Source: Blautia sp. (GTDB lineage: Bacteria; Bacillota; Clostridia; Lachnospirales; Lachnospiraceae). Taken from it: 64,000 nt of DNA. The stretch lies in NCBI GenBank assembly GCA_023667395.1, contig JAMPAC010000005.1:11186-75185 (forward strand), given 5' to 3'. Below, piece after piece: positions 55,230 to 64,000 of this stretch. The position numbers were made by a program, and so were the translations under genes. Below the pieces are notes generated by a model. That model was not told where the DNA came from and did no database searches. It was given only the letters and a program-made list of their open reading frames with translations. Numbering within the stretch: the stretch's first letter is position 1; the number at the start of each line of letters is the position of its first letter.

Positions 55230-55860
55230 TTACTGCTTATCTATTGTTCTATCAAACAGCGGCATCCATTCCCTTTGCTTATATTTACCTCCATCCAACC
55301 AGATTGGCGTGAGCGTATAGGTCGGAACATTGGATTTTAAAACAACCAACTGTTGTGCATCATTATATCCCAATTTTCCCTCTTCGATTCTTTCCTGCGT
55401 CCATTTTTCCTTTAATTTTCCGTCTTCATCACTTTTCGCCGTCTTTAAAATTTCTCTTCCTATTTCACTGAAATATTTCTGTACAATCTGCTTTTGCCTT
55501 TGATCTTTAAATACCGCCGAATGGTCAGAAAATACTTTTTCTGTCATATCAAAACCAAACTTAATCTCGACATTTTCTATTCCCAACTCTTTTAAGCGCG
55601 TTAAAATTTCTGTTTCTTTCTCCTGGTTAAAACATATATATGCCAAAATTATTTTCTGACCTTTTAATTTTTCTTTTTCCTTTGCAGTCAATTCTTTTAC
55701 ATGTGACTCCTGCGTCTCCCTTTCCCCTATAGGTATTCCCATATACTCCTGAAAGATAGAAATAACCTGCCTACCGGAATATGCACCGTCATCAAAAAAA
55801 AATAATAGCTTCTTTCTTTCCGTTTTCCCTTAACGATTCAAATTTCTCTTGACATATCAT
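55230..55860 (-). pseudogene. PRTase-CE (phosphoribosyltransferase-like) remnant with a frameshift in a T9 run
   Basis: The main frame (170 codons to 55742) continues upstream in frame through FFFDDGAYSGRQVISIF, a PRPP-binding-type DDxxxSG motif, and ends with TPIWLDGGKYKQREWMPLFDR, the typical C-terminus of PRTase-CE proteins of conflict systems. Upstream of a run of nine T (55794-55802) the sensible sequence (KFESLRENGKKEAIIFF) lies in another frame, so one T too many breaks the gene. Even joined, about 90 N-terminal residues of the usual family length are missing. It could be a decayed gene or a phase-variable one. Confidence 0.6.
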
Positions 55861-56525: not shown

Positions 56526-56975
56526 TCACGGAATAGCATCTTTCATGGAATAAAAGACCATACTCCGCACGGTTTCAAACAGCCTGGCGGCTTCGTACAT
56601 CAACTCTGTTTTGTCCGCGTCATTCTCCTCCGGACGCAGGCTGGCGATCCTTTTCAGGCCTGTTGTCACCCTGTTTTCCAGTTCCTGCGCATCTTCGATA
56701 TACGCGACGGTGAAGCGGTACTTCCTCTCCAGCTGCGGGTAAAGTTCCTCGAATTTTGCGGAGATCGGGTCGAAAAACTTATAGTAAAAGAAGCTGAATA
56801 CATCGAAGGGCCGGTTCCAGCCGTCCTCCCCGTGAAAGACCTCATCCACGTAACCCAGCATGACTTCCGCATAATACCGTAATTTCAGCCCAATACTGTC
56901 CCTGGGCTCACCCTCAATGATTTCCCTGTATTCCTGTCTGATCTCCTCGTCCAGGGAAAGCTCTTTTTCTCCCAT
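56526..56975 (-). CDS. Unknown 149-residue protein
   Basis: From MGEKELSLDEEIRQEYREII at the ATG at 56975, with AGGAGGACG upstream; the longer open frame to 57107 has no good start. Acidic and all-helical by eye, with aromatic-rich stretch FDVFSFFYYKFFDPISAKF around residue 55-75. No motif recognised. It follows the gene at 57022-57525 by 46 bases, probably in the same transcript. Confidence 0.65.
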   Translation of the reverse strand: MGEKELSLDEEIRQEYREIIEGEPRDSIGLKLRYYAEVMLGYVDEVFHGEDGWNRPFDVFSFFYYKFFDPISAKFEELYPQLERKYRFTVAYIEDAQELENRVTTGLKRIASLRPEENDADKTELMYEAARLFETVRSMVFYSMKDAIP

Positions 56976-57021
56976 ATATCGTCCTCCTGTCTTTATTTTT
57001 CCCGCTTTGCTTTCGTCCTTT

Positions 57022-57525
57022 TCACGACACCCTGCACAGGCCGCCGTATCCGTATGTAATGCCGATCCGCATGATCTCGCCGTGCCCGCCGGAGAGGTCC
57101 TGCGCATTCCGCATTACAAAACCGGCGCTGTACACATAGGCCTCCGGATACAGGATATACGTTTCAATGCCCGAAATATCCTCCCGTTCACGCTCCCATT
57201 CCGATTCCCTGTCGGAGACATACAGGAAAGAATACTGCACGTCAAAGGGTTCGGGCATCATCATTGTCAGGCACGTCATTTCATTGCGGATCACATGGTA
57301 GACAAGGTATCCGCTCTGCCGTTCAAATTCTTCCACCAGCCTCTTTTCCGCCTCTGACAGAGCATACAGCACCCCTACTCTGTTTCCCTTTCCCGCATAG
57401 CTGGCACACACCTTCCCCTCTTCTTGAAACATCCTGATCACGGACTCTTTCGGCTCATCATACAGCTGCAGCATCTGCATTCTTTTTACCGCTTCGTCGA
57501 TCCATTTTTCTTTTCCTTCGTTCAT
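57022..57525 (-). CDS. Unknown 167-residue protein
   Basis: From MNEGKEKWIDEAVKRMQML, with GGGAGGATG upstream. Mixed alpha/beta soluble protein with LVYHVIRNEMTCLTMMMPEP, a charged segment DRESEWEREREDISG and a glycine-rich end GGHGEIMRIGITYGYGG. Related in layout to small immunity-type proteins of Clostridia, but no firm family. Likely first gene of a two-gene operon with 56526-56975. Confidence 0.65.
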   Translation of the reverse strand: MNEGKEKWIDEAVKRMQMLQLYDEPKESVIRMFQEEGKVCASYAGKGNRVGVLYALSEAEKRLVEEFERQSGYLVYHVIRNEMTCLTMMMPEPFDVQYSFLYVSDRESEWEREREDISGIETYILYPEAYVYSAGFVMRNAQDLSGGHGEIMRIGITYGYGGLCRVS

Positions 57526-57626: not shown

Positions 57627-57677
57627 TTGCCTTCCTGCTTTTACTATAGCGTCGGTTTTCCTGCCCGGTTGCAAAAA
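57627..57677. repeat. About 51-bp direct repeat, left copy
   Basis: It shares ATAGCG, then GGTTTTCCTGCCCGGTTGCA and a run of A with 63533-63583 (a few differences in the first half). The two copies lie 5.9 kb apart and bracket the small-RNA-like units, toxin-antitoxin loci, Rpn nuclease and the CRISPR accessory operon. Confidence 0.6.
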
Positions 57678-57683
57678 AAGCGC

Positions 57684-57854
57684 AAAAAAATTCTGTAGAT
57701 CTTTTCTACAGAACTTTTTGGTAATCGGAAATGAGGAAACCGTGTACGGATCAGTGTGTCAATGCCCTGTATCGGGCTCATTCCATTTCTATCCTGCCAA
57801 TAGCGCCCCTCTTTCCCACGCCTTAAGCATAACACAATCCCATACTTTCTGCAA
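57684..57854 (-). ncRNA. Small-RNA-like unit, copy 1
   Basis: Minus strand: promoter TTGCAG (57849-57854), 17-base spacer, TATGCT (57826-57831), about 135 transcribed bases and a terminator TTCTGTAGA/TCTACAGAA (57691-57713) followed by seven T. The first 75-80 transcribed bases and the promoter are almost identical to a second unit at 58702-58963; the terminators are also identical. No convincing protein is encoded on this strand. Function unknown. Confidence 0.5.
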
Positions 57855-57891
57855 GAAAATCAATTCGATTTACAGCTTGCCAGATTTTCAT

Positions 57892-58701: not shown

Positions 58702-58963
58702 AAAAAAATTCTGTAGATCTTTTCTACAGAACTTTTTGGAACGGATTACCTTTCGGCTGCATCCGATTCCCTGTAAACGAGCTGGCTGGAAACCAGCTGA
58801 CTGCCCAGCTGAACTATTGCCTACAAAATCTAAAAACACAAAAAAAGGGAGGAGTAAATTATGAGTGTCAATGCCCTGCATCGGGCTCATTCCATTTCTA
58901 TCCTTCCAATAGCGCCCCGCTTTCCCACGCCTTAAGCATAACACAATCCCATACTTTCTGCAA
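58702..58963 (-). ncRNA. Small-RNA-like unit, copy 2
   Basis: Minus strand: TTGCAG (58958-58963), 17-base spacer, TATGCT (58935-58940), about 225 transcribed bases and the same terminator TTCTGTAGA/TCTACAGAA (58709-58731). The 5' part equals copy 1 except for a few bases; about 115 unrelated bases sit between it and the terminator. On the plus strand the conserved part could also encode 24 residues from an ATG at 58861 with GGGAGGAG upstream. The rest of 58363-59130 shows no gene. Confidence 0.5.
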
Positions 58964-59130
58964 GGAAATTAATTCGATTTACCACATTCCAAGTAACAGT
59001 TCAAACTCGTCTCACAAGAATGTCTTTTCCCCAGTATTCCAGTCTTTTTCTGTCCTTTTCGTCTCCAAAATCCACTGAAATACACAGTTTCCATGCCGTT
59101 TTAACTACTTTTAGAACCAGACTGCAAAAC

Positions 59131-60219: not shown

Positions 60220-61194
60220 TTACCATTCCAAATGATATTTCCCAAACCCAAAGCTGGTATTTTTCCCGATCTGCGTCACCTCACCCGCCAGCAGCAGATC
60301 CAGCCACTTTTCTGAAATGTCCGTCAGTTCCGCCTTTCCCACAATGCCTTTCAGCATGATATTCTGTCCGTGTCTGGAGGAATACCTGGAAATCTCTTTC
60401 TGCCTGGCCCACCCGGAGGCCACGGTCAGCGCGGGCTGTTCCGGCGGTTGGAACAGCCTGTACCCGCCGCCCTCTTCCCCAATCACGTTTTCAAAACAGG
60501 ACAGTATCCACAGCCTCCGCAGCACTCCGGCGCTCAGGGCTTCCCCTGTAAAAGACTGCTGGAACTGCCCCTGATATTTCAGACATAAAGGAGTCTCAAA
60601 GACAAGGGATCCTGCAAACGGCTCCCTGTTCCCCGGCTCCGTCTGTTCACAGGCCTGCAGCAGTTTTGTCCTCCTGTGAGCCACATACTCCCCCAGGGTT
60701 TCCCACCGGTACCGCTCCATATAGACATTCCGCCCCTCCAAAACGGGCTGTCCATACAGGTTGCGCACCGACAGGACGCGGAACCGGCTGCCATGACTTC
60801 CCAGCCCGTTCTGCCCAAGGGCGTAAACCGCATTCAGATACTGGCTGAAATACACGATCGTCCTGCCAAACAGGGTCAGCGTAAATTCCAGGCGATCCCC
60901 CGCCGCAAACTCTTTTCTCCTGTCCGTGCAGCAGAGGGTATATCCCACGCTGTCCCCTGCATGGACGGACTCCGGCAGCTTTTCAAAGCGGGAATACATC
61001 GTCCTCTGGACAATGCATTCATCCCGGAACCCACAGCTTTCGCACTGCCTGTTGGCAATACAGTTGGCCCGCAGCAGCATTTCCCCGATCCCTCCGCGGA
61101 TGGCGGAGACTTTCTCCCGGACTAACTCCGTCTCCTCCTCAAATTCGATTACAAACGTCAACCTTGTATACCTGATCTTTTTATAATCCTCCAT
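60220..61194 (-). CDS. cas6: Cas6 CRISPR RNA-processing endoribonuclease
   Basis: A 324-residue RAMP-fold protein of the PF10040 Cas6 group. It has a four-Cys cluster (C45, C51, C54, C60) seen in many of these proteins, two ferredoxin-like halves and the C-terminal glycine-rich loop QIGKNTSFGFGKYHLEW. Cas6 cuts pre-crRNA within repeats for type I or III systems. GGGAG precedes the ATG. It ends the minus-strand CRISPR accessory operon, 62 bases after the small ring-nuclease-like gene. No CRISPR array is within the window. Confidence 0.88.
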   Translation of the reverse strand: MEDYKKIRYTRLTFVIEFEEETELVREKVSAIRGGIGEMLLRANCIANRQCESCGFRDECIVQRTMYSRFEKLPESVHAGDSVGYTLCCTDRRKEFAAGDRLEFTLTLFGRTIVYFSQYLNAVYALGQNGLGSHGSRFRVLSVRNLYGQPVLEGRNVYMERYRWETLGEYVAHRRTKLLQACEQTEPGNREPFAGSLVFETPLCLKYQGQFQQSFTGEALSAGVLRRLWILSCFENVIGEEGGGYRLFQPPEQPALTVASGWARQKEISRYSSRHGQNIMLKGIVGKAELTDISEKWLDLLLAGEVTQIGKNTSFGFGKYHLEW

Positions 61195-61256: not shown

Positions 61257-61619
61257 TCAGGCCGTTCCATACTCCCTGAACCGGACAAACTCAAATTCCA
61301 CTTCTTTCTTCCCCGTTGCCGGATCTTCCTTCACTTTCCGCTCACTGCAGGCTGCGACTACCCTGATCCCTCTTGCCTTCAGTCTCGTGACCACGGCATA
61401 AGCCATGCAGAATTCCCCCTGGCACATGACAGCATCGGGACAATATTTCTCAATCTTTTTGCATTCTTTTTCCGCACAGGCGGTCAATTCCGCAGTCCCC
61501 ATATCCGGCGGCACATTGGGAAAAGGAATGTCCACGATATCCTTCCCCAGCTTCCGCGCCGCACGGATCTGTTTTTCTCCCCATGCACTGCTGGGATGAT
61601 TCGAATAATTTACAAACAC
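61257..61619 (-). CDS. Small type III CRISPR-associated protein, ring-nuclease-like (possibly Csx20-like)
   Basis: 120 residues, GTG start overlapping the sigma-like gene by 10 bases. It begins FVNYSNHPSSAWGEKQIRAARK, has DIVDIPFPNVPP and MCQGEFCMAYAVVTRLKARGIRVVAACSER and ends with EFEFVRFREYG. This Rossmann-like small protein recurs, to my memory, near type III CRISPR loci and looks like the small CARF-type ring nucleases that degrade cyclic oligoadenylate, but I cannot name the family with certainty. Its job would be to switch the CARF response off. Confidence 0.6.
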   Translation of the reverse strand: MFVNYSNHPSSAWGEKQIRAARKLGKDIVDIPFPNVPPDMGTAELTACAEKECKKIEKYCPDAVMCQGEFCMAYAVVTRLKARGIRVVAACSERKVKEDPATGKKEVEFEFVRFREYGTA

Positions 61620-62827
61620 TGGAACACATCCCTTTCTTTCACCAAAAGCGCTTTCACCAGTTCCACATACTTCTTCCGCTCCCTTGAGATCGTGCTCTTA
61701 TCCTTTCCCTCCAGTTCCGCGATCACCTTGTCCGAAAAGTCAAAATCCCCCCGCAGAAGCTTCACGTACACCTCATGGAAATCTTCCGGATATTCCGCCA
61801 GCGCCCTGTGCAGATACTTTTCATCCAGCAGCTTCCGGTACAGGAAACCGCCCCTGGGCTCCAGCAGCAGATAGAATTCCACATCCCCCGCCGGTTCCGT
61901 GGGATAGGGCTGACCGTTGCCGTCCAGCTTCAGTTCCTTTAACAGGTTGGAGGAAAAAAACAGCTGAATGGTTCTCTTCTCCCGCAAGCCTTTTCCCGAG
62001 TCGATCAGTGCCCATTTCCTCTCGATATTCTCGCAGAAAGCTTTCAGCATATCCCGGGCCGCTTCCCGGTTCTCCGCCTCCTCCGTCCCGTTCCTCTCAT
62101 CCGCCAGCTGAAATTCCACAGGATCGCCGTTCTCATCCGTTCCCCCGTCCATGGATATGCAGGAAACGGTATCGAACACCAGCGTCCGCACCAGTTCCCG
62201 CGCCTTTGCCGTATACCAGTCTTTTCCCTGACACTCTTCCCGGATCTCGTCCATGATTTTGTCGGGAGACGCTTCTTTTCCCATCCTCTGCATCATATTT
62301 TTCCTACCGCGCGCCAGTTTCATGATCCTGCACAGATTCCGTTCCGGTATCTCCCCGTCGTATATGCCCATCCCGCTTAAGTCGTTTTTCGCCGCTCCCA
62401 TCTGGGCGGCCTGCTTATAGAGCACCCCCAGACAGGCCAGGAAGCTGTATCGCTCTCCCTTCCCGTTCACTCCCGTGTAACTGCATACCGCCTTATTTAT
62501 GGCTTCCGCAAAGGCCACGTTGTCAATATCCTGCCTGTTTTTCACCGACGCGATATCCTCGTCCATGCCATATCCTTTTTCCCGCTCCTTATGGGCGTCC
62601 GTCAGCCGTTCCTGAAACCGCCTGTATGCTCCCGGCCTGTAAGCCTGCATGGCTTCCGTCCAGAAGTCGTCCCGCATGGGATACCTCCGGAACAGATCCA
62701 GGCGCTGCTCCTTTCCTTCCCCTCCGCCGGTTCCCACAGGCATCCGGGCAAGCTTTCCCAGAAAATCCCCATGCCTGGCCTCAAATTCTCCGGCAAGTTC
62801 CTCTTTGATATCCTCTCTTCCGTCCAT
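61610..62827 (-). CDS. Sigma-70-like transcription factor in a CRISPR accessory operon
   Basis: 405 residues from an ATG with GGAGGACG upstream. Residues about 105-145 (AEAINKAVCSYTGVNGKGERYSF) resemble sigma region 2; 158-195 (ERNLCRIMKLARGRKNMMQ, then RMGKEASPDKIMDEI) resemble region 3; 220-257 (ISMDGGTDENGDP then FQLADERNGTEEAENRE) match the SLDxP...ADExxxPEE stretch between regions 3 and 4. Residues 355-390 (DFDFSDKVIAELEGKDKSTI, then SRERKKYVELV) look like a region-4 helix-turn-helix. There is an extra N-terminal domain of about 95 residues. It lies between a CARF protein and a ring-nuclease-like protein, suggesting signal-controlled transcription. Assignment is by eye. Confidence 0.6.
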   Translation of the reverse strand: MDGREDIKEELAGEFEARHGDFLGKLARMPVGTGGGEGKEQRLDLFRRYPMRDDFWTEAMQAYRPGAYRRFQERLTDAHKEREKGYGMDEDIASVKNRQDIDNVAFAEAINKAVCSYTGVNGKGERYSFLACLGVLYKQAAQMGAAKNDLSGMGIYDGEIPERNLCRIMKLARGRKNMMQRMGKEASPDKIMDEIREECQGKDWYTAKARELVRTLVFDTVSCISMDGGTDENGDPVEFQLADERNGTEEAENREAARDMLKAFCENIERKWALIDSGKGLREKRTIQLFFSSNLLKELKLDGNGQPYPTEPAGDVEFYLLLEPRGGFLYRKLLDEKYLHRALAEYPEDFHEVYVKLLRGDFDFSDKVIAELEGKDKSTISRERKKYVELVKALLVKERDVFQCL

Positions 62828-62843
62828 CCTTTCGTCCTCCGGC

Positions 62844-63449
62844 TTATGATCTGATCATCTTTTGCAGCGCTTCCTGCATTTTCTCGATTCCCAGTCCATG
62901 CATTTCATCGATCACATTCCCCAGCAGCTGGAATACCGTCAGATCGTACAGGCAGGCTCCGGTCATTCTCCCGGCCTCCCTTTTCACCTCTCCGTAATAG
63001 ATGCCGTCCACCTCACAGTCCTTTATTTTGGGGAGAAAACTCAGGGCATACAACAGCACGGCGGACATGGGCTTCGTTCCAAAGGTGATATCCCCATAGA
63101 CCAGCGATCCCTCCGGTATTTCCTCCAGAATACGCATGAGCAGTTCAAGGCTCACGGCGTCGCTCTGCTCCTCCGCCACGGAGATCACCCTGACTTTCTC
63201 TTCCCCTATGCCAAGTTCCGCCAGTTCGCCCAGAAACGCCGCGTAATTATCCGGCGTATCCGCAGTATCCGGACGCACGGCCAGCACCGTTACGTCGTCT
63301 CCCGGATCCTGATGACCGGCAATCACCGGAATAATGGGAAAGCTGGACTCCCGGTTATGCTCCAGCGCAAAGCCCTTGGGCTCATACAACAGCTTCAGCA
63401 GATCTCCCCTTGCCTGGAGGGAGATATTGGTAAGATAGGTTTTTTTCAA
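62844..63449 (-). CDS. Stand-alone CARF-domain protein (TM1812-like)
   Basis: 201 residues from a TTG with GGAGG upstream. The block SLVYGDITFGTKPMSAVLL followed by YALSFLPKIKDCEVDGIYYG and GACLYDLTVFQLLGNVIDEM is the TM1812/Csx1-type CARF pattern that binds cyclic oligoadenylate made by Cas10. Only about 30 residues follow, so there is no room for a nuclease effector domain. It is the first gene of the minus-strand operon and may be a sensor, a ring nuclease or a regulator of the sigma-like protein. Confidence 0.72.
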   Translation of the reverse strand: MKKTYLTNISLQARGDLLKLLYEPKGFALEHNRESSFPIIPVIAGHQDPGDDVTVLAVRPDTADTPDNYAAFLGELAELGIGEEKVRVISVAEEQSDAVSLELLMRILEEIPEGSLVYGDITFGTKPMSAVLLYALSFLPKIKDCEVDGIYYGEVKREAGRMTGACLYDLTVFQLLGNVIDEMHGLGIEKMQEALQKMIRS

Positions 63450-63532: not shown

Positions 63533-63583
63533 TTGCCCTCCTGCTCTTTCCATAGCGCCGGTTTTCCTGCCCGGTTGCAAAAA
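63533..63583. repeat. About 51-bp direct repeat, right copy
   Basis: Counterpart of 57627-57677. It overlaps the -35 region of the plus-strand CARF promoter. Confidence 0.6.
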
Positions 63584-63603
63584 GACAATATTTCTGCTAT
63601 ACT
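63575..63603 (+). promoter_or_regulatory. Promoter of the plus-strand CARF gene
   Basis: TTGCAA (63575-63580), a 17-base spacer and TATACT (63598-63603), about 37 bases before the ATG at 63641. Confidence 0.7.
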
Positions 63604-63640: not shown

Positions 63641-64000
63641 ATGAGCAGACACTTTATCACCGTACTGGGTACGGGCAACTATTCGGAATGTGTTTATGAG
63701 ATGGAAGACGGACAGTTTGCATGTAAGACGCCCTTTGTGCAGATCGCCGTTTTAAAGTATGTCATGCCCGACTTCAAGCGCGGCGATAAGATCACCGTCT
63801 TTGCCACGGAGAAAGCGGAAGAAAAAAACTGGAATACCACCATAACGGCAACGCCCCAAAATAATGGCGGCAAATCCAAGCCTGTACAGAAAAAACTGCG
63901 TTTCGGGAAAAAGACCTTTCACCTGCAGTTCCAGATGGAATCAGCAGCCGAAGCCGACAGCCTGTCCTCCGGCGGGACGGAGAGAAAAGGGCTGGACGCT
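63641..64000 (+). CDS. CARF-domain protein (Csx1/Csx2, TM1812 type), C-terminus beyond window
   Basis: 120 codons seen, frame open at the edge. It starts MSRHFITVLGTGNYSECVYE and has KTPFVQIAVLKYV and GDKITVFATEKAEEKNW, which are the N-terminal signatures of TM1812-like CARF proteins (xxLGTGNY, TxFVQxA, VFxTxKA). In full-length members a HEPN RNase or other effector follows. GAGGGG precedes the ATG. It diverges from the CARF-sigma operon, which suggests that the rest of the type III system lies to the right. Confidence 0.85.
   Translation, partial: MSRHFITVLGTGNYSECVYEMEDGQFACKTPFVQIAVLKYVMPDFKRGDKITVFATEKAEEKNWNTTITATPQNNGGKSKPVQKKLRFGKKTFHLQFQMESAAEADSLSSGGTERKGLDA

Follow-up and report, generated by a model that had tools for sequence, protein, structure and literature searches.

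A stand-alone CARF protein paired with a sigma-70-like protein at a type III-D CRISPR locus as a candidate messenger-controlled transcription switch

What might a CARF protein that lacks an effector domain do when its gene lies next to one for a sigma-70-like protein? The question is raised by a Blautia sp. stretch of DNA of 64,000 nucleotides, hereafter the window, in which CARF, the sigma-70-like gene, csx20 and cas6 form one minus-strand operon (63449-60220) that adjoins csx1 and a type III-D CRISPR module.

The operon starts with a stand-alone CARF protein of 201 aa (62844..63449, minus strand, TTG start). The PADLOC profile CARF2--CARF (PDLC01822) covers nearly the whole protein (7.8e-56, residues 1-194 of 201), leaving therefore no space for an effector domain, and the effector-less CARF protein of the original prediction is thereby confirmed. 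The NCBIfam model TIGR02221 also matches but under its cut-off (8.3e-9). After a spacing of 16 bp comes the gene for the sigma-70-like protein (405 aa, 61610..62827, minus), which overlaps by 10 bp with csx20 (120 aa, 61257..61619, minus). The product of the latter had been described as a small Rossmann-like, ring-nuclease-like protein, and it corresponds to the ring nuclease Csx20 (PADLOC 1.7e-35; NCBIfam NF040559 7.5e-10, under the cut-off of the model). Together with cas6 (60220..61194, minus; PADLOC 1.2e-59, Pfam PF10040 2.2e-11), this is the anticipated series of three closely spaced or overlapping genes followed by cas6. The absence of a protease was also correctly anticipated, as the four operon genes encode CARF, the sigma-like protein, Csx20 and Cas6, and neither a SAVED-Lon protease nor the anti-sigma CalpT is found among these four. 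A second assembly (JAMPHT010000024.1, which shares coordinates with contig C16 of G1275) has copies of all four genes whose DNA is about 97% identical, with dN/dS values of 0.22 for CARF, 0.10 for the sigma-like gene, 0.12 for csx20 and 0.11 for cas6, and this range of 0.10 to 0.22 indicates that all four are real and maintained.

The csx1 gene is divergent from the operon, with its ATG at 63641, and encodes a CARF-HEPN effector (PADLOC 1e-80). The cas10/RAMP module sits just past the window end on the same contig and on the minus strand, and it is of type III-D according to profile matches to Cas10d (2.1e-114), Cas5_IIId (4.1e-42), Csx19 (1.9e-12) and Cas7_IIId (1.1e-167). The minus-strand genes found there are an adenosine deaminase gene, cas10, the III-D cas7 and cas5, csx19 and a gene that matches DnaJ below the threshold; the palm motif of Cas10 is AGDD. 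The adenosine deaminase gene (L003:14546-15517, minus) is stand-alone and shares 4 bp with the start of cas10. It matches Pfam at 3.5e-32 and, in its deaminase part, PADLOC CARF_ADA at 2.9e-12, and its product may be a CARF-less relative of Cad1. In two relatives, a MYG1-type gene heads the III-D operon, namely in G007 (L024:13109-13930, read by eye) and in G368 (L025:10016-10846, Pfam 5.2e-43). The window also contains two 127-bp copies that are 93% identical (57756-57882 and 58865-58991), each holding one sequence that by eye is similar to the CRISPR repeats found in G368 and in G007, while no array lies in the window. Finally, the match of a gene at 55230-55742 to the PRTase-CE family is confined to the C-terminal part of that family (2e-16).

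How far can the 405-aa protein be called a sigma factor? From the window protein alone, the call is weak: RpoD_Cterm matches residues 166-285 with E=0.0042, far under the cut-off of the model, Pfam gives no sigma match up to E=1, and a PDB search returns only fluorescent proteins at E of about 1. Via its relatives, the call becomes firmer. The window family has five members, the window protein, G677 (57% identical to it) and G007, G368 and G198 (25-29%); across this family the CARF segment DITFGTKPM is kept and changes fall elsewhere in the CARF protein. Compared with 30 RpoD proteins, the profile of the sigma-like family reached a score of 40.5 (P=1.5e-4) in an alignment spanning window residues 125-245, which correspond to the stretch from the end of region 2 to region 3.2 of sigma factors, while 100 column-shuffled versions gave at most 29.3 and 33 other window proteins used as decoys at most 22.8. 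A PDB search with the five-member profile found no sigma factor, the best match being plant Adagio (E=0.77).

The clearest CARF partner is that of MT835511, a record filed as phage, which matches RpoD at 3e-6, RpoS at 3.9e-6 and ECF models at 9.1e-5. Pfam places matches to region 3 and region 4 along it in the expected order, both under the cut-offs (0.0089 and 0.052), and it is the only partner to match Sigma70_r4, the model for -35 recognition (E=0.052); in the PDB, SigA proteins come closest to it (E=0.023). Its alignment with the window family scores 42.5 (P 3.3e-5, shuffles at most 28.2). When the partner from Treponema was added, the score was 40.6 in one direction, over most of the length, and 29.9 in the other, over less (decoy maxima 23.4 and 24.2). 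The match to sigma-70 regions 2 to 3 is thus given by the comparison of profiles with shuffles and decoys and via MT835511, not by Pfam. Altogether, the profile alignments span window residues about 104-275, and the range of 95-405 originally proposed for the homology was about right. The same proposal comprised blocks like sigma regions 2, 3 and 4: regions 2-3 are supported by the profiles, whereas the tentative assignment of region 4 rests on a C-terminal helix-turn-helix-like stretch that is collinear with it, an insertion lying between region 3 and these C-terminal parts. The 405-aa protein thus appears to be sigma-70-like; binding to core RNA polymerase and promoter choice are predicted functions, for which the motif described below provides indirect support.

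Is the neighbourhood of CARF and the sigma-like gene a particularity of this genome? Searches with the sigma gene found it in 4 of the 397 family genomes, 3 of 392 of the order (strong matches; five weak partial ones in G188, G308, G196, G401 and G666, E 8.4e-5 to 0.0075, were left uncounted), 1 of 398 of the phylum and 3 of 134 of the genus. These amount to six distinct genomes (G000, which holds the window, G007, G368, G198, G677 and G1275), and in 6/6 a CARF gene lies directly upstream. From the other side, CARF searches matched 5 of 398 genomes at the phylum level, 8 of 111 in the G1071 family and 1 of 10 in the G1106 family. One phylum match, L023, was dropped because its gene is longer and CARF-HEPN-like. 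This yields ten distinct genomes with a stand-alone CARF, to which one plasmid and a scaffold classed with the phages were added. In 12/12 records, a gene of at least 285 aa follows directly downstream on the same strand. The association recurs in relatives, where CARF and the sigma-70-like gene are conserved as neighbours.

The nature of the downstream partner is graded. By these tests, five are firmly sigma-like (window, G1071, G1191, MT835511 and the Treponema plasmid pTS2); those of G1071 and G1191 match the window family with P 1.6e-9 over most of their length, with no match to RpoD directly, where 4 of the 33 decoys score equally high. For six others, the likeness is suggestive: G1126, G1153, G1196, G1132 and G1172 score above all 33 decoys against the window family with P of only 0.003 to 0.017, and the G1106 partner hits one sigma-70 model at E=0.084 and does no better than decoys. 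The remaining one of the 12, that of G958, is not sigma-like and has no link to sigma proteins in the model search or the decoy comparison. Csx20 also adjoins the CARF gene of G1172 (tblastn 3.4e-22), and cas6-like and csx1-like neighbours were recognised near other CARF genes by eye only. Scans of viral contigs returned zero relatives, whether the query was the window sigma-like protein or its alignment, the CARF alignment or the MT835511 partner. In tblastn searches, the window sigma-like protein had none at 1e-5 in plasmids and phages, and the MT835511 partner found no plasmid relative and, in phages, nothing beyond itself.

The idea that the pair is restricted to CRISPR loci was dropped after two pairs were seen without cas genes, in MT835511 and pTS2, which the original prediction had not foreseen. 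The ORFs of MT835511, read by eye, include bacterial housekeeping genes; besides BREX genes (BrxP, BrxC, PglZ, BrxL), the record carries a DndA-like gene, and VWA, PP2C and kinase genes come after its CARF-sigma pair. Inspection of its listed ORFs by eye revealed neither cas10 nor a RAMP gene. Its part 13088-38736 (L096), with the BREX island, the DndA-like gene, the pair and the VWA-PP2C-kinase genes, resembles a piece of bacterial chromosome. In pTS2, the pair adjoins AAA and VWA genes, and the gene table of the 98 kb around it, which is incomplete, has no annotated cas gene besides CARF. A gene annotated as an adenylate/guanylate cyclase domain protein (L066, 21282-22685) lies about 8 kb from this pair and is a possible other messenger source. 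A tentative extension, which we hold to be somewhat less probable than its opposite, is that CARF and the sigma-like protein make up a portable one-step messenger-to-sigma switch, serving self-induction and a small regulon in III-D CRISPR and reused in non-CRISPR defence islands with a messenger from another enzyme.

Which genes could such a sigma factor serve? A 51-bp repeat, 90% identical, joins the upstream regions of CARF and of the gene at 57022-57525. Its 22-bp core occurs twice genome-wide at up to 3 mismatches (reversed control 0); across 101 genus genomes, the same tolerance also gives one 3-mismatch site each in G1254, G1276, G1270 and G1250. A comparison to G677, together with a less strict local scan, narrowed the core to TGCAAC-N18-CTATRG, a bipartite, non-palindromic motif of fixed spacing. 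In the 4.43-Mb genome G000, the exact motif has 3 sites, all within 8.4 kb at the CRISPR locus. The predicted promoter of the CARF-sigma operon (TGCAAC-N18-CTATGG, 63550..63579, minus) lies 100 bases before the CARF start, and a second one (TGCAAC-N18-CTATAG, 57644..57673, minus) lies 118 bases before the candidate target gene 57022..57525 (minus, 167 aa), which has only a sub-threshold UPF0223 match (4.6e-5). An ORF overlapping the end of that gene (56526..57041, minus), with no Pfam match, may be its operon partner. The third site, TGCAAC-N18-CTATAG, precedes the gene of a J-domain protein (L003:6424-7149, minus) whose end matches DnaJ below the threshold and in which hydrophobic stretches were seen by eye. 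On the other strand, a housekeeping-like csx1 promoter was read by eye (TTGCAA-N17-TATACT, 63575..63603, plus), whose self-complementary TTGCAA overlaps the divergent CARF-operon site.

In the same way, the 3.0-Mb genome G677 has 2 exact sites, both at its CRISPR locus. One precedes the cas10-to-sigma operon and had helped to define the motif; the other, which had not, is a TGCAAC-N18-CTATAG upstream of the orthologue of the J-domain gene (L089:10206-10970) and is followed by a csx1-like gene recognised by eye. The two J-domain proteins are 45% identical over 109 aa and 69% over 61 aa, and this protein is a possible new immune effector. The hexamers of their two sites agree because the search pattern demanded it, and the spacers agree in 8 of 18 bases. 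Among spacings of 8 to 30, only 18 gives sites (110 kb of C162, 38 kb of C44 of G677), and 60 Markov shuffles of C162 average 0.017 sites at this spacing. In all five distinct locus sites of G000 and G677, the motif points toward a gene start. Being non-palindromic, bipartite, of a single spacing and start-facing, it is therefore as expected of a promoter.

The number of sites proves little, since 26 genomes contain 13 motif sites and 10 of the reversed control; it is their location that carries evidence. Four of the 20 same-genus comparison genomes have one site each, 13 of the 20 being named as without sigma match. G007, G368 and G198, which carry distant pairs, lack the motif, so that, for now, it is confined to one genus, and no common bipartite motif was found between the upstream regions of G1071 and G1191. 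G1275, a near-identical strain, adds for this reason little to the case; a fourth site in it lies inside a repeat-protein ORF and was taken as chance. Within its range, the motif goes with the CARF-sigma pair, because the CARF proteins of G000 and G677 are 73% identical while their Cas10 proteins are only 25% identical. The G000 Cas10 groups with that of G198 (46%) and with the longer of the G007 pieces (51%), and that of G677 with G368 (44%), so the two effector modules differ and the G677 motif precedes a different cas10 operon.

From the gene content, the pairing, the homology and the motif that were seen, we infer messenger production, CARF binding, sigma control, transcription and reset, and put the probability of a CARF-controlled sigma factor at about 0.58. 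Control of a dedicated sigma factor through CARF had been proposed in the original prediction, which is partly supported; the motif is evidence that this prediction lacked. Upon meeting phage RNA, the III-D complex would make cyclic oligoadenylate, most likely cA4 given Csx20 and Csx1. A CARF dimer would bind it and release or activate the sigma-like protein, CARF acting either as an anti-sigma freed by the messenger or as a co-activator. This dedicated, self-inducing sigma factor would direct RNA polymerase to TGCAAC-N18-CTATRG promoters, raising the output of CARF, sigma, Csx20, cas6, the J-domain protein and the gene pair of no assigned function; in the relative G677, the induced unit would be the whole cas10-to-sigma operon. 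Csx20 would then destroy the messenger and reset the loop, in agreement with the degradation of cA4 described for Csx20 enzymes (PMC12409355).

Other readings have to be weighed against this one. A sigma-derived partner could form with CARF a messenger-switched repressor or RNA polymerase inhibitor instead of a promoter-selecting sigma, the motif being its operator. Homology that is clearest at the equivalent of regions 2.3-3.2 and weak at region 4 would suit such a protein, as would the insertion before the C-terminal parts, but the promoter-like design of the motif, with one spacing and a gene start ahead at 5/5 locus sites, speaks against an operator and makes this unlikely in our view. The motif might also be read by another regulator or by the housekeeping sigma, its presence reflecting duplication and common descent and the pair being maybe a switch with other targets. 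That both 51-bp copies belong to one repeat, that motif and control counts are close (13 and 10 sites in 26 genomes) and that distant pairs lack the motif are in line with this. Yet common descent accounts poorly for J-gene spacers that match at only 8 of 18 positions, or for a motif found in G677 before another cas10 module, and we consider such a recogniser improbable.

CARF could even work alone, as a ring nuclease or a messenger sponge beside an unrelated neighbour. Some stand-alone CARF proteins are indeed ring nucleases, for example Crn1 (PMC12409355), but the window operon already has Csx20 for this task, and the pair stays adjacent across different cas10 modules and at both sites that showed no cas genes, which renders a solitary CARF very improbable. 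If the CARF-controlled sigma factor is true, it would be a direct wire from a CRISPR second messenger to transcription, with a ring nuclease inside the feedback loop, and the switch would be reversible because it involves no proteolysis. The motif also provides a short list of testable promoters, and the J-domain protein and the gene pair at 57022-57525 are candidates for new antiviral functions.

How does the pair compare with known systems? A large type III survey put transcriptional regulators aside for later work (PMC11229360). Searches of open-licence PMC papers turned up no description of a CARF and sigma-70 pair; the 2020 CARF classification may mention it, and priority is not established. 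Craspase, with Csx29-Csx30, is reportedly linked to a sigma factor, and a CRISPR-linked sigma is its likeness to the window locus. It differs in being protease-based, RNA-triggered and of type III-E, and in having no messenger sensor (PMC10028731). RtcR likewise couples a CARF domain to sigma-dependent transcription, but it is one protein made of a divergent CARF and an AAA+ activator of sigma-54 (PMC4012209), whereas the partner is here itself sigma-70-like. Csa3 shares CARF-controlled transcription in CRISPR loci and is one fused protein with a winged helix-turn-helix (PMC8699464), in contrast to the two genes and sigma-like partner found here. The nearest system in what it does is CalpL/CalpT/CalpS, where, as proposed here, transcription is governed through a sigma factor that answers to a type III messenger sensor. 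CalpL senses by SAVED and cuts the anti-sigma CalpT, and CalpS is an ECF sigma (PMC11417357). At the window locus, the sensor is a stand-alone CARF protein, the operon includes no protease and no third protein of this kind, and the sigma-like protein matches RpoD-type models; the pair may accordingly represent a variant of the way in which messengers control transcription in type III CRISPR.
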